Below, one piece after another: positions 6,201 through 64,000 of a stretch of DNA of 64,000 bases; within the stretch, counting starts at the first letter, position 1; each line of letters starts with the position of its first letter. Below the pieces are notes generated by a model. The model ran no database searches. It was not told the origin of the DNA and was given only the letters and a program-made list of their open reading frames with translations. The stretch is taken from contig BGKB01000053.1 in the NCBI GenBank assembly GCA_003116975.1, positions 248,001 through 312,000 of the forward strand, written 5' to 3'. Both the position numbers and the translations under genes were made by a program. This stretch comes from Aurantiochytrium sp. KH105. Taxonomy: Eukaryota > Sar > Bigyra > Thraustochytrida > Thraustochytriidae.

Positions 6201-6968
6201 GTCGAGAGCTAGACTCTCTGCGATGGCAGCGTGAAGAGGGTGCGCCAAATCGGCAAACTGCTGCTCGCGTCGAGGGTAAAGCTGCGTGTATTCAAGCTGC
6301 GTCTCGTAAAAAGGGCAGTCCTTTAAAAAACGCACAATGCCTTCGAAATCAAGACCGTGCTGACTGTCAGGACTCCGATATAATGCGGCTAAATCTTGGT
6401 GGATAGGACCCTCAATTGGAGCCGCACTTGACCCGTTCTCGGTGCTACTTGGCGGGGCGCTCAGCAGAGGGGCCGGAGGAAGCGGTTCCATTTCGAGACT
6501 GGAAGGATTACATGCAGCGACACCCGTCTCGTACGCCTTGGTGCGCTTCTTGAGCGCAGTTTTGCCAGCGCCGACATATCGCTTTTTCACGATGATCTCC
6601 AAATGGTAGACAATGTGATCCACCTTGAACGCCAGCGGTGGCTCTGGAGTTTGTTGTTGGGCCATGGTTGTTGGCCCGCCTGCACTCGCCTCTACAGGCA
6701 CGTACTGCAGACAGAGCACCTCTGGTGCGAGGTGAATGAGCTGTCGAATGCGATCGAGGGTGAGGTCCACCGAGGCCCTGCTCAAGCTCTTGACCATATT
6801 GATCGTCACAGGCACTCTGCAGCTAATGTGTTTCTTCGTGAGAAAGCTCACGGCCGCGTCGAGCACCTTGCACTCCCTCAGCACCTGTTCCTTGGTCTGC
6901 GCCGCCGTCGAGGCCGCGGTGCCCTCGGCGCCGCCATGCCCGGCACTCTCCGCCTCGACGCCCGCCAT
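3252..6968 (-). CDS. HRQ1: Hrq1-type RecQ4-like DEAD/DEAH helicase with DUF1998
   Basis: 1238 residues from the ATG at 6968; the frame is open to a TTG at 7133, but that extension is Arg/Pro/Gly-rich. A superfamily 2 helicase core is clear: Walker A STSSGKS with lysine about residue 289, motif II DEAH at 484-487, motif III SATI, and motif VI QVGRAGRSGKD. Between the RecA lobes are lysine-rich and acidic inserts. The C-terminal part has FDDCPGGLGIA followed by a cluster of cysteines (CSCQ..SGCLACL...C), matching the DUF1998/MZB zinc-binding module. This order is that of fungal and plant Hrq1 and bacterial YprA-like enzymes, 3'-5' DNA helicases of interstrand crosslink repair and telomere maintenance. 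The last ~80 residues are basic, possibly nuclear localising. Convergent with the MORN gene. Confidence 0.88.
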   Translation of the reverse strand: MAGVEAESAGHGGAEGTAASTAAQTKEQVLRECKVLDAAVSFLTKKHISCRVPVTINMVKSLSRASVDLTLDRIRQLIHLAPEVLCLQYVPVEASAGGPTTMAQQQTPEPPLAFKVDHIVYHLEIIVKKRYVGAGKTALKKRTKAYETGVAACNPSSLEMEPLPPAPLLSAPPSSTENGSSAAPIEGPIHQDLAALYRSPDSQHGLDFEGIVRFLKDCPFYETQLEYTQLYPRREQQFADLAHPLHAAIAESLALDFGIEKFFKHQALAIDAARRGCNIVVSTSTSSGKSLIFGIPVFDTLLKEGNLLSLEETENGPLSKEEGTIKAEDAFENLDGNNVKSAGFLEDNTESGGFCFSDEKVTSLNNEGKRAKVKQEQEEVEASEEDELPDRAREVTALYIFPTKALAQDQLGSTRRLASAIGARASKRVRVCTYDGDTKQSDREDIRKDAEIIITNPDMLHVTILPQHRHWKNFLRGLRFVIIDEAHTYHGIFGSHVACVLRRLQRVCAMYAVRSPQFFTCSATIANPVELFSLLCPSSPNELFAVGDDMDGSPCGRRLFGIWNPPLHPSQRFAENAKKEANDAKTTKKGKVKNEKKTKKADKKLSDDGNAQGQPDALVVDAKEESMLDRKSSIYETALLLSALTRLGVKTMAFCRTRKLTELVLRYTQDELKQGYKGKVYESQDKTRDLAPTFAQGQPHLADLVAGYRGGYQAAERRVIEDKLFNGRLIAVTATNALELGIDVGHLDAVILLGYPGSAASMWQQVGRAGRSGKDALALFVCFNGPTDQYFAQRPNELLDRGRVERAVLDPFNKYVLKDHLLCAMHERAFHGEEDRRLFGGTHEKNQETLTQVLSDLVEDNLAIRLPHGALQTHAKLCKPWNNVSLRVVDPVTFELYSGGELMDTIPYSRALFELYPGAIYMHQGRSFLVSKMDLNSYKAWAHPTHVNYYTSPRDCNYVKVMGRFDTERLLPGLDVHCGAVQIERSVWGYRKIWLRSGRIFEMHEFTLPSLFFETQAAWVDLSTEVQIAVAQAGRDVRAGIHGINHMLAKLVQVHIMCHSSNVGIEHDAEFIKRPRPPRLMIFDDCPGGLGIAEAAYLKMLPMLQSCRDMVANCSCQSSSGCLACLAHATCGEYNARLDKRAALIILDMILGPKQEPPRPPEVPRTPRANEVASAATAGSPRRLRSKRKKAPTTPERNRAKSLPKALSMGRARVEQVQIQRQWVAQQPSYSENISKDE

Positions 6969-7508
6969 GCCCGGACCTGCCGACGGCCGACGGCCGGCCC
7001 TTGCAGGTCCGCCGGGGCGGGACGGGCGAGGCGAGGAGCGGCCCGAGAAGCGCGGGCCTTGGTCGCCGCCTGCGCGCCGGCGCGCAGAGGAAGGCCTTCT
7101 CTCGCGCCGGGTTGCCGCTCTGCTGGCGCGCAACGGGGTCCAGAATCACCGCGCTCGAACTCGTCTCTTCACAATCAACCAAAGTCAAGTCGCGAACCGA
7201 GGGCGCCTGCGCGCGAGCGGGCGAGCGAGCGTGGGCACCTGGGAAGACGCGCGGGTCTGTCGCTGCGCAGAGTTGCAGCAGCAAACGAACGTGAAGGGAC
7301 GGAGGGGAAGGCCGGAGTCTGCGAAATCGAGGTCGATATCGACGACAGGCGAAAGCCGAGCGAGCACGGTGACGTGCTGGCCTGACCACCTTGGAGAGGT
7401 GACAAGGCCCTGCTCGAGGCTCGAGGCTCGGAGCGCGCGATAGTCAACTCGGGGGGGGTACTTGAACCACAGGACCTGCGTTGAAGAGGAAAGTTTGATC
7501 TGGATACG
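6969..7508. other. Divergent promoter region, helicase / ARM-LamG genes
   Basis: GC-rich 540-bp spacer between two divergent ATGs. A G9 run lies near 7451-7459. No supported gene; likely a shared bidirectional promoter. Confidence 0.5.
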
Positions 7509-10500
7509 ATGGGCCAAGATATTTCCGGTCTGGAACTCTTTGACGGTCTTCAAGAGCAAAAGATTCTTCGCGCAGATGACGACAATCTCTACGAGCAGAG
7601 AGCAGAGCGGTCCGAAGCTGAAAGAGAGTCGAGCGAGAGGGTGTTGGAAAGAAGAAGCGAGGATCCACAGGCCGGCCTCTCTGGTGCTCTGGGCGACGAA
7701 CTTTGGGCGAGCCAGACTCTATCCCAGGTCAAGAATGCAAAGAACCAGCGAAGCGCGCTGTGGCATGTGATTCGTCTCACCATGAGTCAGGTACAGCAAG
7801 GCGTCTCCTTGGATATTACAACGTCTCCACATTTGGTGCGCAACGCCATCATGCCTGTTCAGGGCTCATCGCTTGACGAGCTGTTGCTCTTTGCGTCCTT
7901 TCTCAACATAGTCTATCCCTTTTCCTCCAACACATCATTCGGCTTTGCAAAGCTCGCCACTGGACCTGACTTACGTATGGGCCCACGGCAAAATCCGTCT
8001 TATGCAGCCGCGGTACATTATGCCACACTAATGCGCGAAGATTATAGCGGTGCCGCCAGCAATCTCTCATACTTGTTGCTTGCAGCGGACCGCCGTACCG
8101 TACGAATCGCAAGTCTGGCTCTGGCCATCTTGGTCGTGCATCCAAGCTCACGAAAGCTGTCGCACGAGCCCCACGGTTTAGCAATCTTGTGCGCCGACAG
8201 AGACCCTGTCATGCAGTACCTCGGCGTGACGACCCTCGGCAATCTCTGCGCGAACAAGAATAGTGGCGAAAATTCTCCCGATAGTATGGGCATTTCGAGC
8301 GAGATTCAAGCGGTCATGCGCACGTCGATACCAATCCTTTTGCAAATGCTTGTAGACCCGGAAACGCCCCTCTTTGTTGCGGAGGCTGTTCTCTTTACGC
8401 TCTTTAATTATGTGCGCATCTCCTCCGCGGGTGCCTCTGTCGCCCACGCTATCATTGTAGTTGACGCAGAAGGCAAAGCACATGCTTCTGTGGACATTCA
8501 TGTCGGCAAGGACGCGCGGAGCGGCGCGACGGCGCCGGTACTAGCCTTGCCCTCCGAGCGTCAACGCTTCTTTATGCTGCACGTGCTCTTTGGCCTGCTG
8601 CACGGTGTGGGGACCGAAGACCTTGCGTCTGCCCGAGCATTTCCTCACTTCCAAGAATGGAGTGAGACTTCGGATTTGGCGCATACACTGGTTTGCATGC
8701 TCCTTTGCGAGCTTTCGCGGCCGCAGGAGAATGCACATTTATTCGCAGCTTCAGTAGATACCGATGCGCGACGGCATTCCAACCTCAAGCGAAATTCGCG
8801 GGCCCGTCTTTCTCGTGCTCTTTTTACGCCGCAGTCGTCCTTTTCGAGTGACTTGCCATTCGTCACAGATACAAGTCCAACCACGTTGGGAGAGACGTAT
8901 TCTTCACGTATACTTTTGCTTCTCGAACTTTACAGAGAACAGGATTTCTCCCCTGCTTCTACAGCTCTCGCGGCAGCATCTCTTTCGCTCGGGCTTCTTT
9001 CATTAAGTGAAGGAGATAGGGACCCTGCCCCTGCTATGGATAAAAGTCCTCCAATGGCCACATGTGACCAGACACAAGAGAGCGCACCATGTTTTCATTC
9101 CGGCACTATTGCCTCCAACAATTATTTGGAGCCTCTTTTGGCAGCATTTTCTCGACAGAAGAGCGCCAGCTTCGATCTTCATTGGGCGCACTTCCGCGTC
9201 GCCCCCGAGCGTACCTCGGCACGAACGCAACTTTTGTCGGCGGATGTGCTTGGCGACATTTGTGGCAAGGAAATTGGCATTGACAGCTTCCTTAAAAGTA
9301 TGGAAGACCGAATGTGCGAGGTCACGCACGATACCGACTTTGACGAAGTCTGGATCGCATACTTTCAGAACCTTTTCATGAACCGTCTTGAGGACCTGGT
9401 GCACGCTCATCTTGCTCGAGACGATGCTGCCAAGCCCAAAATTGCTGGACAAGGTGGCGCAAAGTTCGTCTTACAACTTTTGCATGCGATTTTGCAGACG
9501 TGCGCAGACAAAGATGTTCTCGTCCGCACCCTCAACACCATTGCTCGACTTGCAATATTTGATGCCGATGCCGCCATGGCTCTGTGTGAGCGAGGCGTCG
9601 TGCGCAGGCTTGTCCAGATGCTCTGGGTGATTTGCGCTGACCAAGGTATCCTGGCTGTAGAGATTACTGAAACAGATGAAGAAGAGGTACTCTCGGTGTT
9701 TCCCGACACTAGTGACCATATTGATAGAGCCGAGGATTCTGGGAACCCAAGCGCGAACGAGAACACTCGATCTCGAGATACGGGTCGACGGCAACGTCAA
9801 GATTCCATTGTTGCTGCATTGCTCACGCCGAAGCACGGGAACAAGAACTTCCACGCGGATATGCTGTTCAATCGGATACTGGTTGATGCTGCGCTTCGAA
9901 GTCGTTTGCGTTACGTGCAAGGCTTGCTCGGGCCAGAGCTCGTTCTTCACGTTCTTCGCGCCTTGAATGCCTTTGCCGTGCACGGCGCCCTGCGAGATGA
10001 GATCGGCATCAATCTTAAGATGCGAGGATTCTTCTTTCGACTCTACGAGGTTTTCGAAAACGCACGGGATAATACAAAAACTTTTCGTGTCCCCGCAAAA
10101 TTTCAAAGCACTAATCATGCAGACGGCTCGATGCCTTCAGCGCGCAAGTTTGCTCCTGCTCTGGCAGTGGATATGCTTGACGAAATAGTGATGGGGATTG
10201 GATGCCTAACCGCTTCGACACATGCCATTTCACGGCAACGTTGGTCACTTGCAAGGAACCGGGAGCTCATGCAACACCTAGTACGCGCCGCAAGGGAAGC
10301 AAGTGTAACTCAGCAAGAGAAGGTATCTCTTGACGCTCAGCAAAAGAGCGTCAAATCTTTGTGTGCGTTGGAGAACATGGCGCGCTCACGCGGTGTAAAA
10401 GCTGCTCTACTTTCGCACACGGATCTTTTGGACGCGCTGACTGAAGTTTTGACGGTCACGGAGAGATGCACGCAGCATCGTGCGCAGCAGCGCGAGATCG

Positions 10501-11756
10501 CGCTACGCCTTTTGCGAAATCTGATTCGATCCCCTCACGGTATGACGTTGTGGCTTCAATTTGCGTCCGATGCGCGAGCTAATCTTGACGCATCCGGCAA
10601 TGTCTGTGGGGCTCGCGTAGGTGTGGACTTTACGCCACATCCGAGTTTGGACGCTCTTCGTAAGCTAACGCGGTCGCCTCTGAGCCAGAGAGACTCAGTA
10701 CTTTTGCGCGCGGGGCCATGGGGAAAGTTCGACTGCGATGTGCGTGATCGAAACTCTCGCAGTGAATCGAGTCTTCAGATGCCCTTGTTCCGAGAATGTT
10801 GGGGTGTCAACTTTTCTAAAAATACAGGCATCGCATTCAAAGGGGATCAGGTTCGCCTAGGAAGTGCTTGGTCTATTGGAGTTTGGTTCGTTTGTGGGCC
10901 TGCGTTTGACGCAGCACAAGTGTCGCAGTTCAACGCCGCAGCTTCTTCTTCATCTTCTTCATGTTTCCAGACGTCATTTACTTTGGTGCAAACACATCGT
11001 GGTGATCGACCTGTTTGCATCTTGCGCCGGCAAGTCACAGAAGCCGGCAAGACGATCTTCGAGCTAGGCTCCTTTTGCGCTGCAAACGGGACATGGTACG
11101 GGAGCGGAATTGATCTTGGTGCATTGAGGCAAGGCTGGCATCACCTCATGGTTGTCGGTGTCGCAGGCAAAACTCGTTTCTATCTGGACGGCGGATCACA
11201 TCTTGCTTGCGCTCTCATCCGCTATCAGGCGAAGGGGGATATTGTGCTAGTGGGCAACGGTGGCGCGCTCGACGAGTCTTGGGGGACAGCCGCTGATTTT
11301 CGTGTGTATCCCTTTGCACTGGGCAAAGATGCACGTACGTGGGACTTGTATGTTGATGCTCGCACGTGGGGACCGAATTGTTTTGCTGACGCTGCTACAT
11401 TTCTCCTCCTTCTTTCTCAGCAACAACAGCAAGAGAAGATGGTCATGTCGATTTCGATGCACGCGCCGCCTGGGCTTCTTCGTTTACTCGTCGCGCAGCA
11501 TCAGCGCGGCGCGCTCCTCGAGCTGCTGCTAGCAGAGACGAAGCGCTTTGGTGTCATATCCGCTGCGCGGATCATGGCAGTCGAGGTTCTTGGTGACCTC
11601 GCACTCTGCGCTCCCGTGCGCGCACACGTGCTTGAGTCTTGCATAATCGACTGCTTGATCGAAGCTCGTGAAACTACATCAAGAAGTAATTCGAGTGGCG
11701 CATGTGACACCGCGCTGGAGAAAGCTTTGAATCGCCTTGTCATGAATGCAAAGTAG
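7509..11756 (+). CDS. Large ARM/HEAT-like protein with C-terminal LamG/ConA-like domain
   Basis: 1415 residues from an ATG at 7509. It begins MGQDIS, which fits an N-myristoylation consensus (Gly2, small residue at 6). Residues about 90-1060 are leucine-rich alpha helices with armadillo/HEAT character (for example PLFVAEAVLFTLFNYV and EIALRLLRNLI), broken by charged linkers. About residues 1098-1275 look like a concanavalin/LamG jelly roll: GIAFKGDQVRL, SIGVWF, a tryptophan-histidine GWHHLMVVG strand and RFYLDGG. BEACH proteins also join ARM repeats to a ConA-like domain, but no BEACH or WD40 part is visible here. No enzyme motif was seen; a membrane-associated scaffold is the best inference. 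The downstream intergenic space is short. Confidence 0.6.
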   Translation: MGQDISGLELFDGLQEQKILRADDDNLYEQRAERSEAERESSERVLERRSEDPQAGLSGALGDELWASQTLSQVKNAKNQRSALWHVIRLTMSQVQQGVSLDITTSPHLVRNAIMPVQGSSLDELLLFASFLNIVYPFSSNTSFGFAKLATGPDLRMGPRQNPSYAAAVHYATLMREDYSGAASNLSYLLLAADRRTVRIASLALAILVVHPSSRKLSHEPHGLAILCADRDPVMQYLGVTTLGNLCANKNSGENSPDSMGISSEIQAVMRTSIPILLQMLVDPETPLFVAEAVLFTLFNYVRISSAGASVAHAIIVVDAEGKAHASVDIHVGKDARSGATAPVLALPSERQRFFMLHVLFGLLHGVGTEDLASARAFPHFQEWSETSDLAHTLVCMLLCELSRPQENAHLFAASVDTDARRHSNLKRNSRARLSRALFTPQSSFSSDLPFVTDTSPTTLGETYSSRILLLLELYREQDFSPASTALAAASLSLGLLSLSEGDRDPAPAMDKSPPMATCDQTQESAPCFHSGTIASNNYLEPLLAAFSRQKSASFDLHWAHFRVAPERTSARTQLLSADVLGDICGKEIGIDSFLKSMEDRMCEVTHDTDFDEVWIAYFQNLFMNRLEDLVHAHLARDDAAKPKIAGQGGAKFVLQLLHAILQTCADKDVLVRTLNTIARLAIFDADAAMALCERGVVRRLVQMLWVICADQGILAVEITETDEEEVLSVFPDTSDHIDRAEDSGNPSANENTRSRDTGRRQRQDSIVAALLTPKHGNKNFHADMLFNRILVDAALRSRLRYVQGLLGPELVLHVLRALNAFAVHGALRDEIGINLKMRGFFFRLYEVFENARDNTKTFRVPAKFQSTNHADGSMPSARKFAPALAVDMLDEIVMGIGCLTASTHAISRQRWSLARNRELMQHLVRAAREASVTQQEKVSLDAQQKSVKSLCALENMARSRGVKAALLSHTDLLDALTEVLTVTERCTQHRAQQREIALRLLRNLIRSPHGMTLWLQFASDARANLDASGNVCGARVGVDFTPHPSLDALRKLTRSPLSQRDSVLLRAGPWGKFDCDVRDRNSRSESSLQMPLFRECWGVNFSKNTGIAFKGDQVRLGSAWSIGVWFVCGPAFDAAQVSQFNAAASSSSSSCFQTSFTLVQTHRGDRPVCILRRQVTEAGKTIFELGSFCAANGTWYGSGIDLGALRQGWHHLMVVGVAGKTRFYLDGGSHLACALIRYQAKGDIVLVGNGGALDESWGTAADFRVYPFALGKDARTWDLYVDARTWGPNCFADAATFLLLLSQQQQQEKMVMSISMHAPPGLLRLLVAQHQRGALLELLLAETKRFGVISAARIMAVEVLGDLALCAPVRAHVLESCIIDCLIEARETTSRSNSSGACDTALEKALNRLVMNAK

Positions 11757-33546: not shown

Positions 33547-34611
33547 TCACTTCGACTGAAACTCTTGCATCACAACGTGAAGGTCATCGAGAAAGCGGAA
33601 GATGCCTGGAGTCCGGTTCACCCAGTCACGAAACTGGTCTTCCGACATACTCTCGGAGGATTCTAGACCCACATCTTCCCAAACACGGTCAGCAAAGAGC
33701 GAATAAGATCCACGAAGCTTGTCCTTGAAACGAGGAAGTGGGCCATCTTCAATGAGAGCCACGGCCTCTCGCGCAGCATCGTGAAAGATTGAGGCCGGAA
33801 CGGCGTCATCTCCATCTCCACAGGCTGAGATTTCGGCCATGCACTTGTTGCGTACCGTGTCGGAGACGTTCACTTGATCTGTAGCCCCGACTGCAAGAAA
33901 CTGATCCCAAAGACTATCGGCATAATCGCGCGAAAATGAGGTGGAAGGCTCGTCGGCAAGATATTCGACGGCATCCACGAAGCGCAGGAGCTCGTCCGCC
34001 AACTCTGACTTGAGGTAATCCTCGAAACACTCACGACCGAGTTCGACGTTGAGAACGTTTCGCAGTCGCGTACCAAGCACGGCTGCGATCATGTCATTGA
34101 ACTCGCGTCGCGAGATGCTCCCGTCGCGATTTGTGTCAAAGAGGCGAAAGGCAAGCTCGACGTTGTCCTGAGCCGATCCCCGATACGTGAGCACGCAAAA
34201 GGTGACGACGAACTCTTGCGCGTTGATGCTTCCGTTCTGGTCGGCATCGAAGAACATCCACAGCTTGCTAAAGAGCTCTGGCTCGACCTTGATGCCCATG
34301 GCCTTGAAGGCTTTGCGCATTTGCGTCTTGTCCATTTCATCCTTGCCGTGGTCGCCGTTTACCAGAGCTTTGAACTTGGCTTCGAGATCTGCCGCTGCCT
34401 GCGAGTGTTGGCGGTCGATCGCGCGTTTCTCGCGCGCGAGGTTCTGCAGCTGTTTTTGCTTCACCGCGTCCGAGGTCACCGCCAGCGACTTGTGGCCCGG
34501 GAGGGTCAGCTGCTGCTCCTGCGGTCCGAGCGCCCTGCGCTGGCGCGCTTCAATCTCGCTCTTGGGGCCTGCCGGCGTGCACAGCAGCTTGCGCAGCGCG
34601 TTCAGGCTCAT
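33547..34611 (-). CDS. EF-hand protein with C-terminal RGS-like domain
   Basis: 354 residues from the ATG at 34611; the longer frame starts at a GTG. Two canonical EF-hand loops are visible: 122-133 (DADQNGSINAQE) and 159-170 (DTNRDGSISRRE), both with all calcium-ligand positions filled and the -z glutamate present. A degenerate pair may precede them near residues 85-115. From about residue 190 to 300 the sequence follows an RGS pattern: FEDYLKSE..ADELLRFVDAVEYL, then LWDQFL....DQVNVSD, then IFHDAAREAVALIEDG..PRFK. This would join calcium sensing to a G-alpha GTPase-activating or G-protein-binding domain. EF-hand identification is firm, RGS is by pattern. Confidence 0.7.
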   Translation of the reverse strand: MSLNALRKLLCTPAGPKSEIEARQRRALGPQEQQLTLPGHKSLAVTSDAVKQKQLQNLAREKRAIDRQHSQAAADLEAKFKALVNGDHGKDEMDKTQMRKAFKAMGIKVEPELFSKLWMFFDADQNGSINAQEFVVTFCVLTYRGSAQDNVELAFRLFDTNRDGSISRREFNDMIAAVLGTRLRNVLNVELGRECFEDYLKSELADELLRFVDAVEYLADEPSTSFSRDYADSLWDQFLAVGATDQVNVSDTVRNKCMAEISACGDGDDAVPASIFHDAAREAVALIEDGPLPRFKDKLRGSYSLFADRVWEDVGLESSESMSEDQFRDWVNRTPGIFRFLDDLHVVMQEFQSK

Positions 34612-34940
34612 GACGGCCACGACCCTTTCCCCCTCAGGCTGCACCTCGTCCTTCGCCACCAGCCAGCTCGTCCGCCAGCTCGATAACCTCGCACGCTCGG
34701 ACGCGCTCCGGCCCGACAGCGAACTCGCGCGGGCTTGCCGACAAAGAGTACAAGCGCGGCGCGGCTGGTCCGGGTCTGCCCACGCAGCAAGCTCGCCCTC
34801 GTTTTGCGTTTGCTCGTACAGTCTGCGGTCTTACTTCGAGGGCAAGCTCTGGGCCCGGCAGGTCATCGGCCACGCGATATCTGTTTGTCTTCACGTACGC
34901 TAGGCCCTGCGTGCACGTGCCGCGCACGGGCCTCTTTTAC

Positions 34941-36008: not shown

Positions 36009-39000
36009 ATGGAGATGCGCGAGGCCGTGCGCAAGGCGCTCGCCGCCGTCGAAGCGGGCTGCGAAGAAGTCGTCCTTAAAGACGCCCAGCTCACAGCGAA
36101 CGAGCTCGCGAGTATCGTCGAGGTCTTGCAGAAAGACACCAAGGTACGAAAGCTTGACCTCTCCGGCAATCCAGAGCTCGGATCGCAAGCGGGCGATCTC
36201 CTGCGATCCTTGCTCCAAGTGAACGCAAGCCTCGAGGAAATCGACCTCTCTGGCTGCTCAGGCATCGGCGCAAATGGTGTCGGACGACTTGCCGGCGGCC
36301 TGCGCGTGAACATGTCCCTGCGAGCGTTGCATCTACGCAACACCGAGATCGGGGGGTTGATGGGCAGCAAGCAGTTGTCGCGCGCGCTGCGAGCGAATTG
36401 CTCACTGGAGCATCTCGATCTGCGCATGAACGGCCTCGGGCCCAGAGGCATCAAGCATTTGGCCAAGGCGCTGGCCAAGAACCAAAGTTTGCAGGTTCTC
36501 AATATTAGCGAGAACGACATCTCCGACGAAGGCGCCGTGCTCATTTCTAAAACCCTGCGCGAGAACCGCAGTCTCGAGAAGCTCGACATGTGGCGCAATG
36601 GAATCGGCGAGCACGGAGCCTCGCATTTGCGCGAGGCCGTGCGCCAAAATTCGGTGCTGCAGACTCTAAACGCAGAAAACGTCATTCACCGGAACGATCA
36701 CGCAAGAAGAGTCTTCCATAAATCACCATCCTCGCCAACCAGTCCTGGCGCCGACCCTAACGCCCCGGTGGACAGACAGAGTGCGCAACTCTTTCGGTGT
36801 CTCTTTCTGCACACCGCCGACGGCGACATGAGCTTTCGAACTGCTGGTGCAATCAGTGAAGAAGGCGAGGAGAACGAGGATGATGACGGTGGCGATGAGG
36901 AATGCGAAAGCATGGGCGCTTTCGCAGCGGGTGCGCACGAAGCCCCAGCCCTCACGATTGATGACCCCGACGCGCAGAGCATGCTATGGGAAAGCACGCC
37001 CATCGAGCCACTGCAATTCTCTCCAGAAGCTTTTCGTCTTGCGCGAGACGAGACAGATCTCTTTGTCTGGTGCATTGATCGTCTCTCCGAAAGCGAGGCG
37101 TATCGCACCATGCTGCATGATCCGCTGCGGACGTCAAGACTGTGGCTACAAGAGATGCCGGGGGACCTTACCCCGATGGCGCACCTGATTATGGGCAACC
37201 GCGAGTCGCCGACCGGCGCCGAGATGGTGTGCACCAAGATCTTCAACAAGATGACCATTCATGAGGGTCGGCTGCTTTTCAAGGCCAAAGATAGCGCAGG
37301 GCGCACCTTTCGCTCGCTCGCCTCTGGCCATGCCAGTGACAACGTTGTAGCATGGGCAAAAGGATACGGGACTTATCTCTTGCGGTACGACGTGCAAGAC
37401 GGACCTCCTGTACACGAGAGCAAAACGTGCGCCGTTCACTTTGCCACCGATATTGTCAACGAGCAGGAAGTGGCGCTAAAGATCATGAAGGACGCCGAGC
37501 AGTTTCGCAACGAGCTCATTTCGCGCGGACTCATCTCGCCCAACGACAAGCTCGAGACCCTCTCCGATGTCTTGGAGGCCAGTCCAGAGGCCGAGAGCCG
37601 TCTGACCCACGTCGTCCCCATCGTACGCGCTCATTGCGTGGACAAGTGCATTGTCATGCCACGCGCGACTCGCTCTCTCTTCGAGGCCATTAACACGGAG
37701 CAGTTTGTCGGTCGTCAGCTCGGGAAAATTCGCGCAATTGCGCATGCGCTTGCGGTGGCGCTGCTCGAGCTTCAGGTCCAGGGCCGAATTCACGCAGACA
37801 TCAAACCACGGAATTTCGTTCGCGTCTCCAAGAGCTCACCGCAAACTTTTGAGGCAGCCAACGGCGCCTTGGACCTGAGTGCGAGTTGGCGGGGCACTTC
37901 GTCCAGGTCGGTTCGTAGCGACACATTTGATGAGAGCGACGGTGTAGAAATCGACGCAGACTCATCCTGTCCTGCGGGAAGCAACGAGGTCTGGCAGCTC
38001 ATTGACCTCGACGCATCTGTCAAGCTCGGCGAACTTGCCGGCGAAAAGCACAGTAGTGGGTACTGCCCCCCGGAACTTGCTCGCAACCTCTTTCCCCATG
38101 GTGCGAGCGGGACCGTGGTTGCAGGTTCGGGGTTTGATGTGTGGAGTTTTGGCGCGATCCTCTATCAGATGCTTTCCGGTACAAAGCTCTTCATGGTAGA
38201 CGAGACGGACGACAACCTCGTCAATTTTCACGAAAAAGCCGAGCTTTGCAACTGGATTGCAATCGACCGCGACCGTCTTGATCGCATCAACAATGTCGAG
38301 TGGCCGCGGTGGGAAATGGAATACGCCAAGGACCTTGTGCGCGGCTGTCTTATGGGTGACCCCTCGGAACGTCTGCAGCTTGCGGACGTTCTCAAACATC
38401 CCTTTTTTACGACGGCTCGAGGCCGGGCCTCGCTGGCAGAACGCGTAGACGCTGCCGCTGCTGCTGCGGCTGCTACTGTTGCTGCCACTGGCAATTCTAT
38501 TGGCACGAAAGCTTTATCGACGGAGTCCAAAGACGAAGGTGAATCAGGATCGGGGTCGTCGCCGCCGCCCATGGACGCCACGAGACGCATTCTGTCCTTC
38601 CGGGTCAAGGTCGAGCAGCCGTCAGGGGGCGGCGCTGCACGGGCCAAAGGTCTCCCCCAGCGCAGGCGCGCAGAGCTCGAGACGGTTTTCCCGCAGCGAT
38701 ACCATTATTTCCTCTCGCACATGCAAAAGGAGGCCGCCGGTATCGTCAAGGACCTATACCTGAATCTGACCGAGGCTCGATGTTTAGCATGGATCGACAT
38801 GCATGCTGAGGATCTGACGCAGGAATCGATGCGTCAAGGTGTCGAGAACTCGAGCTATTACGTCCTCGTGCTCACGCGCAACGTACTGTTCCGGCCCTTT
38901 TGCGTAATGGAGCTCTTTTGGGCGATTCAACACCATGGGGACGAGTCGGAGCGGCGCATCTTTTTTATTGTGGAAGAAGATTCGCGATTTTCGCCATGGA

Positions 39001-39884
39001 ATCAGGATCTCGACGTGCCTTGGCTTTCCACGGGAGAGCTTGCCGAGGCCCTTCGGGCTTGCAAAGGTGCGGGATTGACCTCGGAGGCTGAGGCAAGTCG
39101 CACCGAGGCGTACCACGCAGCGCAGAGCGCGCTAAAGGCTGGTCTGCAATCTTTGCTGGAAAGTGATTCCCGTGCGGATCCTCGTCTTGGTGTCGATGAC
39201 ATTCTGTGTGCTGCGAAAAAGTACGTGACACAAGGCGTTAAGATTCCGTATCGCCGCCGAGCTTTTGAGGAAGCGGCCATGATCGAGGAGCTGCTCGCAG
39301 TGAGCAGCTATTGCTCGCCGCACGCTTTGCGCGAGTCCGCGGCTGCTGGGGACCAGCCCTCGCAAGAGGATGCCACAGTGAAGGATGTCTATATTTTATA
39401 CCACGAGAGTGGTGCTGCTGTGGCCAAGGAATTGGCGAGCTCGATGCGAGAGAGTCCGGGTGTGCAGCTCCATGGCGATCATTTTACGCTACAGTCGCAG
39501 GTTCTTGCGACCGCAATGGTGCAAAAGCTGCAACGAAGGGTCAAAGCAGATGCATTGCTCATTATTCTCCTCAAGGACGGTTTTTTCAACAAGGGTAGCT
39601 CGCTTGTGCAGGAAGTCTTGCAGTCTTGGGTATGCGAGCAGGGGCGACCATTTGTCATGTTGCAATACGATTGGTCCTTTGGCGGGCCGGAACAGGAAGG
39701 GGTGCAGCCAGAGTTACGCTCTGCACTTTTCGATCTCACAGAAATCATGCCGTATCGTAAGCTTGAGCGCAAACACGAGCATAACGCCATGCTCAAGGAG
39801 ACGAAGCGTCGACTCATGCTCAACGCCGCGAGATATGAGGCTGCATCAACGGCGTTGAGGAAGACCATGCTTGCTCATACGTAG
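36009..39884 (+). CDS. LRR - kinase-like - TIR - TIR-like receptor-type protein
   Basis: 1291 residues from the ATG at 36009; the frame opens at 35982 through a TTG. Residues about 15-230 are ribonuclease-inhibitor-type leucine-rich repeats of about 28 residues (LRKLDLSGN, LEHLDLRMN, LQVLNISEN, LEKLDMWRN types). An acidic linker (280-310) follows. A kinase fold spans about 470-800: VALK (K491), catalytic loop HADIKPRN (595-602), DLD (666-668) in place of DFG, and GFDVWSFGAILYQML. A TIR domain starts at YHYFLSH (898) and keeps a C-x-x-E-L element with E968, where catalytic TIRs carry the NADase glutamate. A second TIR-like unit starts near 1126 (DVYILYHES) with VQEVL at the matching place. This suggests an intracellular immune- or cell-death-type sensor. 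Confidence 0.8.
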   Translation: MEMREAVRKALAAVEAGCEEVVLKDAQLTANELASIVEVLQKDTKVRKLDLSGNPELGSQAGDLLRSLLQVNASLEEIDLSGCSGIGANGVGRLAGGLRVNMSLRALHLRNTEIGGLMGSKQLSRALRANCSLEHLDLRMNGLGPRGIKHLAKALAKNQSLQVLNISENDISDEGAVLISKTLRENRSLEKLDMWRNGIGEHGASHLREAVRQNSVLQTLNAENVIHRNDHARRVFHKSPSSPTSPGADPNAPVDRQSAQLFRCLFLHTADGDMSFRTAGAISEEGEENEDDDGGDEECESMGAFAAGAHEAPALTIDDPDAQSMLWESTPIEPLQFSPEAFRLARDETDLFVWCIDRLSESEAYRTMLHDPLRTSRLWLQEMPGDLTPMAHLIMGNRESPTGAEMVCTKIFNKMTIHEGRLLFKAKDSAGRTFRSLASGHASDNVVAWAKGYGTYLLRYDVQDGPPVHESKTCAVHFATDIVNEQEVALKIMKDAEQFRNELISRGLISPNDKLETLSDVLEASPEAESRLTHVVPIVRAHCVDKCIVMPRATRSLFEAINTEQFVGRQLGKIRAIAHALAVALLELQVQGRIHADIKPRNFVRVSKSSPQTFEAANGALDLSASWRGTSSRSVRSDTFDESDGVEIDADSSCPAGSNEVWQLIDLDASVKLGELAGEKHSSGYCPPELARNLFPHGASGTVVAGSGFDVWSFGAILYQMLSGTKLFMVDETDDNLVNFHEKAELCNWIAIDRDRLDRINNVEWPRWEMEYAKDLVRGCLMGDPSERLQLADVLKHPFFTTARGRASLAERVDAAAAAAAATVAATGNSIGTKALSTESKDEGESGSGSSPPPMDATRRILSFRVKVEQPSGGGAARAKGLPQRRRAELETVFPQRYHYFLSHMQKEAAGIVKDLYLNLTEARCLAWIDMHAEDLTQESMRQGVENSSYYVLVLTRNVLFRPFCVMELFWAIQHHGDESERRIFFIVEEDSRFSPWNQDLDVPWLSTGELAEALRACKGAGLTSEAEASRTEAYHAAQSALKAGLQSLLESDSRADPRLGVDDILCAAKKYVTQGVKIPYRRRAFEEAAMIEELLAVSSYCSPHALRESAAAGDQPSQEDATVKDVYILYHESGAAVAKELASSMRESPGVQLHGDHFTLQSQVLATAMVQKLQRRVKADALLIILLKDGFFNKGSSLVQEVLQSWVCEQGRPFVMLQYDWSFGGPEQEGVQPELRSALFDLTEIMPYRKLERKHEHNAMLKETKRRLMLNAARYEAASTALRKTMLAHT

Positions 39885-58369: not shown

Positions 58370-61300
58370 TTACAGCGACACTGTGCCTCCTGTCTGATCT
58401 TCGTCTCGCCCAAGGCGCTCTTGATGTTCTGCACCAAAGAGAGTTGACCCTTGTTCACCTCCGACTCTCCCTGACTCGCTGCGCCGCTGCGGCCGTCCTC
58501 GCACGCGAACAGCGTCGTGCAGCTTCTCCCACTCGTTATGTGGCCGGTTGAGATACTTGAAGTGCGGAAACAACCTGACGTTGAGCTCCTCGACGAGCGT
58601 CGGGTAGCTTGCCATTGTGTGCGAGGGCTCCGCACAAAAGCACCACGCCCACGACGCTGCCGCGGATGTCGAGTACGTCTGCGTCAGCGCCTGGGCCGCA
58701 GCTTGAGACTTGCGCGACTCCAAATTTAGGTCAAAGTCCCGACTTTGCATCCGAAGCGCACCGGACCTTCGGTGCGAGTTCACATAGACAAGCGCTTGCA
58801 AAGCACGCACGTAGATACGGAGATTGTCCTCCTCAGAAAGACCCTCCTCTGCGATCTGTTGCGCTAGGTAGCTTGAGTGCCCTGTTGATGGTGACGCCGA
58901 AGAAGAGCCGCCTCGAGTCCCACTGCTCTCGCCTTCCATCTCTGCAACCTGGCGTACCCCAGTCACTACCGCTGCGTCAAACCTCATTGTTGATGTTGTT
59001 GTCGCTGTCGCTGATGCTGTCGTCGTCGCTGTCGACGCACCAAACGGCATTGGCGGAAGACGACTGAATACCGCTGAAGCGAGCGAAGAGAGCATGCCTG
59101 CCTTGTCAAGGGCGATCCTTTGCAAAGCCGCCATCGCCACATGAAGTTGCTGCACCTTGAAGGCCGACTCATTGACCGTTGGATCCTCTTCATGCTCCTG
59201 CGTCGCCAAGTCAAAGAGTAGAAAGACCATTGGTAAAAGCTTCATCAGGCTTGGCTGCAAAAAGCTGCCACTCGGCCGTGTCATCTCTGTTCGCACCGCA
59301 AACAGAATGCTCGAACCCACACGCGCCAGCACTTCACTGGGCGGTGTCAATCCCGTTGCGAGGGCATACAGTTCCAGGACAAACCACGTATGCCATGCAC
59401 CGCGACGAATTGCGCACGCCTCAAGCTTGAGAATGCTGGCCTCATCATCGAGCACACGACCAAAGTCTCGTTCCACACACAAGGCCGCAATAACGGGACC
59501 CAAGTCCGTACGGACAGTGAACCAGCTTTCCAGCGCTGCTTCCACCACTTCGATGGCGCGTGCATCGCGCGACACACTACGCAAGGCCGCAACAATGTGC
59601 AAGGGAGCACAATGAGGCGTTCGCGTGATGAACGAATGCACGAGACAGCCAATGCCCACGCCCGTCACTGAAAAGGAGTTCTCCGCTTCCAGAGCGCTTG
59701 CCGGCGCCGGAGGCACACCCCCTTGTGCCCTCGTAAAGACACTTTCATTGCTGGATCCCCCCAACAGCGAATTTTGGCTACTGCCGCTTCCTGTGGAGGC
59801 AGCGCGGTGCCGCGCAAGTCGCCGCATGCCCATTGCGAGCCGCGCGCCCGCTGAGCTTACTGCAGATCCCGAATTCTTTGCATCAGGCTCCTCGGGGATA
59901 ACCGATGCAATGCGGTCAAAAGGTGCCTCGCCCCGAGCAGCTGCAATCATTGTTGGGAGCACAGATCTCCACATCACCTTCCAATAGCGCCATTGCTGGA
60001 CTGTCGCCCCAGCGCCTGGCGGGCAGTCTCCCCGTCCATATTTTGATTCACTCCAACCGTGCTGAGTACCGGATTCGTCCGACAACTGGCGGCCCGCTGA
60101 GTCGCGCTCTGCCTCCAGCGCATGACTCCGATCTCCGCCAGGGCCAAGATCAAGATTGTGTGCGCTCTCGTGCAGCCCACTCTCGTCTTCATGAAACTGT
60201 AGGGTCGTCGGCAGCGACTCGGAGATGGACCGAAGAACATTTTCAACCTTGCCAAACACCAGATTGGCAACCCCGAGGTCGCCGCTTTGCAGACCGCCAC
60301 TGCTCGAGCCAGCGCGTACGCACACGACGCCAGTCACGTTTAGCAATGTAAATACATCGGTCAGAGCCGCGTCCATACTTTGAAGGACTCGTTCGTGGCT
60401 GTCAATTCTCGCAATCTCTCGAACGCCGTCCACGTGATCGCAGGCCTGGACGTATGGCCCTTCAGGGTCTGCCAAGAGGCCAAGAACGCGCTGCATGCTC
60501 TCGTACACTAGCATTACCAGCGCACCTGAAGAAAAGGGTAACGAAGATGACTCGGACACGAGTTTCTGCAAGCCGGATATGGGCGCCACCGTTGCAGTGG
60601 TTGTCGCCGCTGTACCTCCCACTGTTGTTGCTGCTCCTACCACGTTTGAGGGGGACGACGCTGACGCTCCTTCGACGGAAATAGCGGACTTGTGCGATAC
60701 AAGGGTTGCTCGTAATTGGCTCGACAGTAGAGAAAGGACGCAGCGTTCTCGCTGCAGGGCATCAAAAAGAGAGGTCTCCGCGGCCTGGTCCAGAACACGC
60801 GCGTTCTGACGCTGCGCCGCAAGCGAGGTCGCAGTCCCGAACAAACGGATGGCAGCAACAGCCTTCTTCTCTGCAGTATCCACCGCCACACCACGAGATG
60901 AAGCCCTTTGCGCGGGGATTCGCGCCGCTTCAGCCTTTGGCAGCACGCTCAGCAACATTTCTAGATCCATACCAACCGCGCGAAACGAGTTCGGGTCCAC
61001 GTGCGACCACGGGAGGCCATGCGCTACCCCAAAGTAATACTCACAAAAGCTCGGAGGAACCTCTTGAGGCTCTTTAAGAAGAAGCGTAAACGTGAGCCGA
61101 AGCACGTGAGCATAGAATTCTTCCGGTGGCGTAGTGGTGAGCGAGTCGCGGCGCATCGCCGCCTCCACGGACCGCCCCCTGGCCGCAAGGGTCGCAGTGA
61201 AGCGCCGATGGTCAGATTCAGCAAGTGGCGACCAGTTTAGTTGCTCTAGCATATGTCGGATCATGATAAACACCGGATCACTCGATGTGTGGCTCGCCAC

Positions 61301-64000
61301 GAGACGCAGGAACTCTGCGAGAATTGCATCACAGAGTGTCCACGTCTTCCATGGCAGTTCTTTCAAGGCTTTGGTGATTGTGGCGAGGACCTGCTTGTTC
61401 GCAGACGAGGCAAGATCGTCCACAAAGAGCCACCACACTTGGTCTAGCACCCAAAATGGCTCGACCTGCTGCGAGACTGCGTTGAGATCGCTCACGCATG
61501 CCACAAAGCTCTGGAGGACCGCAGCTGCTAGAGTTTCCTGGTTTTTCTGGCCTACGGTCCAAGGAGCTTCATACTTTCGCTGGGACCCTGTCTCTGGCTC
61601 TGCCTCGTGGCCGGCTTCGAGCTGCGCCGCGGAAAGCCCAAGATTTCCCAAAAATTCGTTTTCGGGCGGCACGGACACCTCACTTGCCAAATAGCGTCCC
61701 GCCAGATCCGGATTCAGTGGCGAAAGGGCTTCCTGCGGGGACTTGTCGAGAAACTCAGAAAGAAGCCAGGGACGAAACAAGGTCGCCAAAGAGGCCCACG
61801 ATCGAACAAGCAATTCTTTCGGCCAAATGGACTCGTCATGCGCGCTGTCGCGAATGAGAGCACACATGAGCAAGATGATCTTGTGCGCGAGCCGCGCGGC
61901 GCGTCCGACGAGCTCGAGTGGCCCCCATTGTTTCACCAGAGGCCCTGGCTCCGTGCACACAGTCACAGCGCTCCCGCTGCCGTTCATACGCAGCTGAAAG
62001 TAAAAGCTCCCCAGTGCGTCGCAAGCTGCAAAGAGGGTCTCAGCGTCCACGGAACGCCATATGCCAGTCCCGATCTCATGCAATACCGCGTCCCAGACCT
62101 TGCCATTCAACGGAGCGCCTTCGCTATCCCTTGCTTGCTGCGGAATGTGGACTCGCAAATTCGTGCTTGCCGAATCTGCAGTCTCAGTGCCCGTAGGCTC
62201 GCCCTCGGATTCGCGCGCCTCGACGCCATCCTCACTGGCCAGCGCCAAGTCTTGAAAGCTTGGCCCAATACTTTGGTCGCCGACGAGGAGCTTGAGCGCC
62301 TCCACAAAGTGTTCTTCGGGACTTGCTTTGCAGACTGCGAGAAATACCTTGACGTGAAAGTCGAAAAGTTTCGTCTCGGCCGCAGCGTCTTCGGGCGTCA
62401 CATATGCGGCCGCCGTTGCTGAGGCAGCTCTGCCTGCCTGACTGTGATTCCTCCAGCCCCTCTGTCGAAGGACACTCGCGGCCATCACCAAGAGCTTGGT
62501 GCGCAATTTGTGGCTCGGCTTGAGGGCCAACCACGGCGCAAAGTCAAAGTGTTCCAGGACAAGAATCATGTCTCGAGCAGGAATCTGAGGGATGGATTTC
62601 CAAGCGAGAACGTAAAAGTCCAGCAACCTTTCCACGATATTCGACGGTCGATAGAGCGGGCTCAAGAGGTGGATTCGGTGCGGGTCTTCCAGCATGCTGG
62701 CCAAAATGAGCATTGTGTCCTCCTCGTGCGTTCGTGCAAATGCGTGACCGGTCTTGCTGATTGTCGTCCACAGCACACGCTGCGCGGGGGGGAATGCTCG
62801 CGTCAATGGGCTTTCCGCCTGCAAAAGGGCTCTGAACCACGCCAGGCCGCGCTGGTGTGCTTTGACACTGTGCGTGGCATCCTTTGACGACGCAAGCGCG
62901 CAAGTATGACGAACTGCTGCAATGAGCGTGGCCACCAAACTGCAAACGTGCTGCTCATCCTCGGAGGCTCCCGCAAGCGCAGTCGCCATCGATAGCGAGT
63001 CGACACTGCTCGTGGACAAGAATCGCTCACGATGGCGCCGCTTCTCCGACGGCAATGGCGCGGGCATCCACCCATACGAGAGTGCGAGCCAAAGATCCCA
63101 GGTCTCTGCAAGCCGATGATCCACGTCTTGGTCCAAAACAGACTCTTCAAACGGAATGTCAAACTGATAGGGTTCGGTATCCTTGCCAGAAGGAGCATAC
63201 TCGTACACTGTCTCGACGCGAGACTGTTGTACGTAAAGATGAGGAAGGCATTCGCGGATCTCTTTGGCGAGGTCATTTGCCTGTGCAGTTTGCCCCGCGT
63301 ACGTTTGCGCGCATACGGTCAACTCGTGCAAGATTGCTTGCACATCCACGCTGCTCAAGTCGAGAGATGCTGGCATCACGGGCTCGCGATAAAGGTACAC
63401 GGGTGCAGGTCGAAAGGTTGCAGCGGCTCCTGTCAATGCGAGACTACTGGCACGGCCGGAGCTCCCGCGCGTACTGGAGAGCGAACCCGAGGGAGCGGTA
63501 CGTCTCGCAGCACTTGCGGGGCACCATGACCCGCATGAAAACACCAAGTCATCGCGATGCGGCGAGAGATCAACCAGATCGAACCAAAGCAAGGAGCGCA
63601 CGCCTGCTGCACCGTTCTCGCTGTAGTTACCATGCGAGTCCGGGCCACTACCCGAAGACGCTTCGGACGACTCAGACGTAGTTGTCGTCGACAAGGATCC
63701 GTGCGTCAAGGTGACGGGTTGAACGACTTCGTGCATGCGTTGCAGCAGAGGCTTGGAAAGCAGGTCGTAGAGCCGCTTCACGCAAAAGTCGGGGCCAAGC
63801 TGATTCAAAGCCGATAATTCTGAAGACGGCGAGCCCATCCATGCGTGCGGGTTGGCGTCTCGAAGCCAGAGCGAGACCGCACCGTAAAAGCACGACAAAG
63901 ACTCGAGATGCGCGCTGCTTCGATAATGCAAGCTGAAGTCGGCGTCAGATCCGCCACCCGCGGGATCAACTGACCCAGTTGAACTCGAACGCCGACGACT
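58370..64000 (-). CDS. Very large helical protein, possibly EPG5-like (5' end outside window)
   Basis: At least 1876 residues; the frame is open to the right edge, so the true start is outside. The stop codon is at 58370. The sequence is largely alpha-helical with Ala/Ser-rich low-complexity linkers and Thr-rich stretches. One block near 62500-62700 (PLYRPSNIVERLLDFYVLAW..FDFAPWLALKPSHKLR) recalls the EPG5 autophagy tethering protein, which has similar length and a helical-solenoid build, but I cannot confirm it. No catalytic motif or membrane span was seen. Other large ARM-like scaffold proteins are alternatives. Convergent with QCR6, 108 bp apart. Confidence 0.55.
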   Translation of the reverse strand, partial: SRRRSSSTGSVDPAGGGSDADFSLHYRSSAHLESLSCFYGAVSLWLRDANPHAWMGSPSSELSALNQLGPDFCVKRLYDLLSKPLLQRMHEVVQPVTLTHGSLSTTTTSESSEASSGSGPDSHGNYSENGAAGVRSLLWFDLVDLSPHRDDLVFSCGSWCPASAARRTAPSGSLSSTRGSSGRASSLALTGAAATFRPAPVYLYREPVMPASLDLSSVDVQAILHELTVCAQTYAGQTAQANDLAKEIRECLPHLYVQQSRVETVYEYAPSGKDTEPYQFDIPFEESVLDQDVDHRLAETWDLWLALSYGWMPAPLPSEKRRHRERFLSTSSVDSLSMATALAGASEDEQHVCSLVATLIAAVRHTCALASSKDATHSVKAHQRGLAWFRALLQAESPLTRAFPPAQRVLWTTISKTGHAFARTHEEDTMLILASMLEDPHRIHLLSPLYRPSNIVERLLDFYVLAWKSIPQIPARDMILVLEHFDFAPWLALKPSHKLRTKLLVMAASVLRQRGWRNHSQAGRAASATAAAYVTPEDAAAETKLFDFHVKVFLAVCKASPEEHFVEALKLLVGDQSIGPSFQDLALASEDGVEARESEGEPTGTETADSASTNLRVHIPQQARDSEGAPLNGKVWDAVLHEIGTGIWRSVDAETLFAACDALGSFYFQLRMNGSGSAVTVCTEPGPLVKQWGPLELVGRAARLAHKIILLMCALIRDSAHDESIWPKELLVRSWASLATLFRPWLLSEFLDKSPQEALSPLNPDLAGRYLASEVSVPPENEFLGNLGLSAAQLEAGHEAEPETGSQRKYEAPWTVGQKNQETLAAAVLQSFVACVSDLNAVSQQVEPFWVLDQVWWLFVDDLASSANKQVLATITKALKELPWKTWTLCDAILAEFLRLVASHTSSDPVFIMIRHMLEQLNWSPLAESDHRRFTATLAARGRSVEAAMRRDSLTTTPPEEFYAHVLRLTFTLLLKEPQEVPPSFCEYYFGVAHGLPWSHVDPNSFRAVGMDLEMLLSVLPKAEAARIPAQRASSRGVAVDTAEKKAVAAIRLFGTATSLAAQRQNARVLDQAAETSLFDALQRERCVLSLLSSQLRATLVSHKSAISVEGASASSPSNVVGAATTVGGTAATTTATVAPISGLQKLVSESSSLPFSSGALVMLVYESMQRVLGLLADPEGPYVQACDHVDGVREIARIDSHERVLQSMDAALTDVFTLLNVTGVVCVRAGSSSGGLQSGDLGVANLVFGKVENVLRSISESLPTTLQFHEDESGLHESAHNLDLGPGGDRSHALEAERDSAGRQLSDESGTQHGWSESKYGRGDCPPGAGATVQQWRYWKVMWRSVLPTMIAAARGEAPFDRIASVIPEEPDAKNSGSAVSSAGARLAMGMRRLARHRAASTGSGSSQNSLLGGSSNESVFTRAQGGVPPAPASALEAENSFSVTGVGIGCLVHSFITRTPHCAPLHIVAALRSVSRDARAIEVVEAALESWFTVRTDLGPVIAALCVERDFGRVLDDEASILKLEACAIRRGAWHTWFVLELYALATGLTPPSEVLARVGSSILFAVRTEMTRPSGSFLQPSLMKLLPMVFLLFDLATQEHEEDPTVNESAFKVQQLHVAMAALQRIALDKAGMLSSLASAVFSRLPPMPFGASTATTTASATATTTSTMRFDAAVVTGVRQVAEMEGESSGTRGGSSSASPSTGHSSYLAQQIAEEGLSEEDNLRIYVRALQALVYVNSHRRSGALRMQSRDFDLNLESRKSQAAAQALTQTYSTSAAASWAWCFCAEPSHTMASYPTLVEELNVRLFPHFKYLNRPHNEWEKLHDAVRVRGRPQRRSESGRVGGEQGSTLFGAEHQERLGRDEDQTGGTVSL

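Follow-up and report, generated by a model that had tools for sequence, protein, structure and literature searches.

Proteins in which a protein kinase and a TIR domain share one polypeptide have been described in choanoflagellates: Kinase TLRs are composed of leucine-rich repeats (LRRs), a membrane span, a kinase and a TIR domain, and Kinase TIRs are without the membrane span (Richter et al. 2018, PMC6040629). That paper gives both groups as uncharacterised and, within its data, as unique to choanoflagellates. Here we describe a gene for an LRR–kinase–TIR protein (the window protein) from the thraustochytrid Aurantiochytrium sp. KH105. It lies in a 64,000-nucleotide stretch, the window (contig BGKB01000053.1, positions 248,001–312,000; G000:C53:248001-312000 in the 76.0 Mb assembly). 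We put at about even the chance that the product is a soluble, conserved one-polypeptide sensor, in which an LRR input would act through the kinase on the first TIR domain (TIR1), with cleavage of nicotinamide adenine dinucleotide (NAD+) as output.

Like the choanoflagellate proteins as described there, the window protein holds a kinase and a TIR domain together; like Kinase TLRs it has LRRs and a kinase ahead of the TIR domain, and like Kinase TIRs it is without a membrane span. By Pfam and hydropathy it falls within the Kinase TIR definition (Pkinase plus TIR, no transmembrane segment), and it has the LRR–kinase–TIR order of a Kinase TLR but not the transmembrane segment. It differs from the described choanoflagellate proteins in its stramenopile origin, its ribonuclease inhibitor (RNI)-type LRRs, the lack of a membrane span, an extra TIR-like unit and a kinase marked by HxSxxC and D-x-D. 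The likeness is one of architecture by description, descent aside. Three protein searches, in each of which scoring was limited to about 8000 top candidates, returned 13, 44 and 34 rows, none with a choanoflagellate name and many nameless; most of the 44 have LRRs alone in common, and the weakest dozen of the 34 resemble general kinases. No paper on a TIR domain and a kinase in a thraustochytrid or labyrinthulomycete was found in a full-text literature that lacks most subscription papers and all preprints. The domain combination pointed out in an initial annotation of this DNA is real in the window protein but has a precedent in the choanoflagellate proteins. The protein is of a known but unstudied kind; new are the distant lineage, the absence of a membrane span beside LRRs and the distinctive kinase signature.

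Other TIR proteins are further removed. The window protein has LRRs and a kinase in place of the ARM and SAM domains of SARM1 and TIR-1 (Pfam gives no match to either), and its NAD cleavage is putative. Two features of a NADase-type TIR of the SARM1 kind, the TIR fold and a conserved glutamate on helix αC, are present in the predicted structure. Relative to the plant TIR–nucleotide-binding (NB)–LRR receptors (TNLs) RUN1 and RPP1, the order is reversed and a kinase occupies the middle, with no NB-ARC, Roc or COR match listed by Pfam at E ≤ 1. ROCO/LRRK proteins, and likewise the Roc-COR-TIR proteins encoded in this genome, share with the window protein an LRR or WD40 sensor, a switch and a TIR domain, some of the TIR sequences being close, but the window protein has no Roc or COR match. 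LRR-ROCO candidate immune receptors in brown algae and a TPR-ROCO-TIR protein in Chondrus are described in another study (PMC11378527).

Architecture and integrity of the gene

The domain order is defined by Pfam matches above cut-off to LRR_6 (64 bits, cut-off 23.4), Pkinase (61 bits, cut-off 31.7) and TIR_2 (residues 901–991, 39 bits, cut-off 28); NCBIfam contributes nothing above its cut-offs. No membrane span is indicated, as no 19-residue window exceeds a Kyte–Doolittle value of 1.6 (maximum 1.39). These results bear out the annotated order in one soluble protein, and the motifs named with it are all present: VALK with K491, HADIKPRN, DLD at 666–668, YHYFLSH, C965-x-x-E968-L and VQEVL. 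The coordinates are collected in Table 1.

A single database protein, ‘Protein NLRC3 [Hondaea fermentalgiana]’, is 99% identical to the window protein and of equal length, and two relatives, with 68% and 53% identity across residues 330–1291, have the same architecture. The reading of the locus as one gene holds: one frame of 1291 open codons without an intron, the same-length database protein and the two relatives with the same fusion rule out two separate genes on sequence grounds, from predictions and open frames rather than RNA.

A second copy, 99% identical, lies on contig C180 of the assembly, and we infer that it is the other haplotype. The copies differ at 99 of 3873 bases, with 78.5 silent and 20.5 replacing differences. 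The resulting ratio of replacing to silent rates (dN/dS), from our own Nei–Gojobori script applied to this one pair with replacing counts of 1 to 4.5 per part, is 0.076 overall, which rules out a random open frame. Because the differences are mostly silent and the relatives at 68% and 53% have a common architecture, the observation goes beyond chance. The ratio rises to 0.49 and 0.21 in the linkers and is lowest in TIR1. The gene is slow-evolving and intact, and its constrained parts are the LRRs, the kinase and TIR1.

Table 1. Features of the LRR–kinase–TIR gene in the window (conservation counts refer to the 39-row alignment)
Feature	Position	Strand	Residues	Evidence	dN/dS
Whole gene	36009..39884	+	1291 aa + TAG stop	Intronless; 99% identical same-length Hondaea protein	0.076 (vs second copy)
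Eight RNI-type LRRs of 28 residues	36072..36674	+	22–222	Pfam, ribonuclease inhibitor match, repeat layout	0.024
Pre-kinase region	36996..37385	+	330–459	Partly conserved among relatives; no Pfam match	0.18
Protein kinase domain	37386..38453	+	460–815	Pfam Pkinase 61 bits; weak PDB matches	0.037
Glycine-rich loop site, reads GPPVHESKTCAVHFA, without GxGxxG	37401..37445	+		H469, S471, C474 in 37/37 rows with residues, 2/39 gapped	
ATP-anchoring lysine (of VALK)	37479..37481	+	K491	38/38 rows with residue, 1/39 gapped	
Catalytic loop H595-A-D597-I-K599-P-R-N602	37791..37814	+	595–602	D597, N602 in 38/39 rows	
D666-L-D668 replacing DFG	38004..38012	+	666–668	Both aspartates in 39/39 rows; middle residue varies (L, M, F)	
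Variable linker, disorder merely supposed	38454..38684	+	816–892	Aligns poorly	0.21
TIR1, TIR domain with helical insert after fourth strand	38685..39338	+	893–1110	Pfam; structure model; fold list	0.016
Putative catalytic glutamate, helix αC	38910..38912	+	E968	36/39 rows; predicted structure	
TIR-like C-terminal unit, degenerate	39441..39881	+	1145–1291	hhalign to TIR1 profile P 1.8e-8; confident within two-unit model	0.061
VQEVL	39606..39620	+	1200–1204	Glu in 4/39 rows, gap in 27; LQTVM (P0002), LQAIL (P0003)	

The TIR1 domain

Residues 895–1102 are predicted to form a TIR fold (block pLDDT, predicted local distance difference test, 72–96 over residues 895–1104), in agreement with the TIR domain annotated at 890–1050. 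The nearest solved structures are SARM1, TIR-1 and RUN1; RUN1 ties with SARM1, and NADase TIRs head the fold list. In the model E968 is residue 84, inside helix 79–99. Conservation was assessed in an alignment of 39 sequences, comprising the window protein, 22 frames from the same genome and 16 database proteins; L020, L028, L030–L036, L040, L041, L043 and L044 are left out as repeats, second copies or frames without the kinase or TIR part. D930, like E968, is kept in 36 of these rows. Compared with PDB sequences, TIR1 alone matches nothing significantly, the best hits being bacterial TIRs at E 0.028 and worse. Because the predicted fold lies nearest to SARM1, TIR-1 and RUN1 and the conserved E968 is placed on helix αC, a sensor that consumes NAD is a reasonable reading.

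The three rows without E968 (L012, L016 and P0006) form one tight group, L012 being 95% identical to L016 and 94% to P0006. These kinase–TIR genes have glycine for E968 and glutamate for D930 and retain the kinase residues; by sequence they probably represent a natural TIR-dead member of the family.

The kinase domain

The set of residues typical of eukaryotic kinases, namely the K/E pair, HxD, the asparagine and the metal-binding aspartate, is complete in the window protein. E502 is present in all 38 rows with residues there, and H595 and K599 in 39/39; the sole exception at D597 and N602 is P0010, whose gene model is suspect at that point. The glycine-rich loop and DFG are absent: the loop site holds GPPVHESKTC, conserved as H-x-S-x-x-C in relatives that cover it, and relatives covering the DFG site have D-x-D. 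PDB matches to this part are weak and are to LAMMER/CLK-type and other kinases (best E 1.9e-8). The metal-binding aspartate survives in DLD, and strong constraint has preserved the remaining catalytic residues, so the domain is probably an enzyme, with some doubt left by the missing glycine loop. The initial annotation had placed a kinase fold where plant receptors have the NB switch; the kinase is confirmed by Pfam, but an inert fold in that place fits poorly with catalytic residues kept under constraint, the missing glycine loop notwithstanding.

Proposed mechanism and alternatives

In the reading to which we give even chances, a signal or an inhibitory partner would be bound by the arc of RNI-type LRRs. 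Binding would release or pair the kinase domain, which may then phosphorylate itself or its linkers. TIR1 units would next assemble and cleave NAD+ through E968, as fold and residue conservation suggest, and give either a cyclic ADP-ribose-type signal or NAD depletion. The C-terminal TIR-like unit, without a conserved glutamate, would most likely serve assembly or autoinhibition.

Several observations weigh against this sensor. In the fold list of TIR1, MyD88 (11.6) is level with the TIR of the plant protein L6 (11.7), and a fold match of this kind cannot separate an enzyme from a scaffold. The C-x-x-E-L glutamate aligns to the bacterial TIR glutamate in the three alignments shown, in matches that are non-significant (best E 0.028). 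The relatives with E968G retain the kinase, and the TIR enzyme is therefore dispensable at least there. Phosphotransfer may also be weak or missing altogether, the kinase having neither the glycine loop nor the glycine of DFG. The dN/dS values come from one copy pair with few replacing changes (one in TIR1). Tests of the C-terminal unit gave weak results, and its fold was not confirmed for the unit alone.

An unlikely alternative assigns the output to the kinase and a scaffold role to the TIRs, with signal-driven TIR–TIR contacts gathering kinases so that they trans-phosphorylate downstream targets, a scheme already proposed for choanoflagellate Kinase TLRs. A streamlined route bypassing kinase recruitment is suggested by Richter et al. 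(PMC6040629). The nearly invariant kinase residues, the retention of the kinase in the E968G relatives and the MyD88–L6 tie all suit such a role, and a second, degenerate TIR-like unit would fit assembly. A scaffold alone, however, needs neither E968 nor D930, both kept in 36/39 rows of a domain that is the least changed part of the protein, and NADase TIRs head the fold list.

Pseudokinases usually lose at least one phosphotransfer residue. Here these residues are kept and constrained, so that a pseudokinase standing in for the NB domain as a switch that binds ATP or nucleotides, with the TIR as sole enzyme, is distinctly unlikely, even though the glycine loop is missing, D-x-D stands for DFG in rows covering those sites and Roc-COR or NACHT-type switches are found in other TIR proteins of this genome.

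The LRR region matches ribonuclease inhibitor (3tsr) at E 9e-26 and can be divided into eight units of 28 residues. Between the two copies it has 1 replacing and 13 silent differences, nearly unchanged, and a constant input (metabolic, damage or an unchanging microbial pattern) is therefore more likely than a pathogen effector that changes fast. A receptor like the resistance (R) proteins, responding fast to pathogens and recognising variable effectors through its LRRs, is improbable: its domain logic resembles that of TNL and NB-LRR (NLR) receptors, a 24-row sister group is confined to this genome and Hondaea and three near-identical relative pairs show looser constraint, but the window gene belongs to a small group in which, its own two copies apart, each source has a single row, and its LRR part has only eight repeats at a dN/dS of 0.024.

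The C-terminal unit and the pre-kinase region

The annotation had also proposed a second TIR-like unit with VQEVL. The TIR likeness stands in part, through the profile match given in Table 1, but the glutamate is not conserved. We rejected VQEVL as a second catalytic glutamate on the row counts and on its replacements in the two nearest relatives, P0002 and P0003; many of the 27 gaps may reflect uncertain alignment. Because the unit is degenerate and its motif reads differently in those relatives, a second catalytic site there is unlikely.

For residues 330–459, Pfam has no listing at E ≤ 10, either for the piece from the window protein or for four pieces from paralogues. An ankyrin origin was suspected from the ankyrin-bearing distant relatives P0012, P0013, P0059, P0060 and P0061, and is not claimed.

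Relatives of the window protein

Of the 39 rows, 36 entered a tree (P0010, P0011 and L042 were removed first), which was made by a quick method with Shimodaira–Hasegawa-like approximate likelihood ratio test (SH-aLRT) support only. The window gene, its second copy, P0001, P0002 and P0003 form one group (99), and an adjoining group of 24 rows comes solely from this genome or Hondaea (99). Support for the branch uniting them is 91, and with several long outer branches the deeper order is unsure. The three near-identical relative pairs, paralogues or alleles, have dN/dS values of 0.13, 0.25 and 0.30.

LRRs are also found in P0006, P0008, L039 and P0055 (the last by precomputed annotation), and the LRR–kinase–TIR architecture therefore either predates the window gene or has more than one origin. 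In P0012, P0013, P0059, P0060 and P0061 ankyrin domains take the place of LRRs; P0061 has no listed TIR. L039 (2247-6956, minus strand) is a divergent protein of 1570 residues with a long N-terminal LRR region and IDMDSA in place of IDLDAS; Pfam gives it the LRR–kinase–TIR order, the TIR match lying slightly below cut-off. L040 (3320-4837, minus) and L041 (2814-4331, plus) are shortened relatives whose frame stops after the kinase, and in the catalytic loop of L040 (HGDVEPRN) glutamate replaces lysine.

PADLOC matches of the kinase part (mad6, PD-T4-6) and, weakly, of the TIR part (PDC-S66) were taken merely as general kinase and TIR likeness. A scan of viral contigs for a virus-borne family gave 29 pattern matches with no relative among them, a weak negative from two short patterns only.

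The TIR repertoire of the genome

The whole assembly of this single-celled stramenopile has a very large TIR repertoire (L001–L008 and L045–L058 being examples of its loci): at least 150 TIR_2 matches exceed the cut-off, from 150 of 258 candidates scored. A Roc match lies within 3.5 kb of at least 68 of these 150, a lower bound from a partial Roc list, and a NACHT-type (NPHP3_N) match lies near 30; neither is near 52, one of which (L055) is Roc-COR-TIR by Pfam. None of the 150 listed matches falls at the places of the kinase family; the TIRs of that family have lower scores. In a Pfam scan of eight genome frames, L046 and L054 are WD40-Roc-COR-TIR, L047 and L053 TIR-NACHT-type-WD40, L045 LRR-Roc-COR-TIR, L055 Roc-COR-TIR and L056 TIR alone, the eighth being L039, described above. 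The TIR1 profile scores 62–68 bits on L046, L054 and L058 and at most 32 on the other frames; L058 has Roc and TIR matches, and of these three the Pfam scan for WD40 covered L046 and L054. The window protein thus appears to be the kinase-bearing variant in a repertoire that joins one effector type to varied sensors and switches.

More tentatively, with the chances somewhat against it, these proteins could form a stramenopile NLR-like immune or death system, with one type of NAD-consuming TIR effector placed under control modules that can replace one another, whether a Roc-COR GTPase, a NACHT-type ATPase or a protein kinase; where the module is a kinase, phosphorylation inside the same polypeptide would directly switch a SARM1-like NADase, a control principle not met in the accessible parts of the literature examined. 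If TIR1 is a NADase gated by its own kinase, phosphorylation and NAD signalling would be linked in one molecule, and the sensor–switch–TIR logic of plant and animal immunity would recur in a remote unicellular lineage, where the controlling part is a kinase. The kinase-plus-TIR architecture itself is extended beyond choanoflagellates, its limit in the genomes compared by Richter et al. (2018, PMC6040629). Because thraustochytrids grow in culture and a protein of this size can be expressed, the idea is directly testable.

Neighbouring genes

Pfam finds no related domain among the ten neighbouring frames scanned in the window. Two long open frames of 1415 and 1853 residues (7509-11756, plus, and 58370-63931, minus) have no Pfam match at E 1e-4. 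The gene at 33547-34659 (minus) encodes EF-hands and an RGS domain and has no evident link to the LRR–kinase–TIR gene, and that at 3252-7133 (minus) encodes an HRQ1-like DEAD helicase with an MrfA-type zinc-binding domain.

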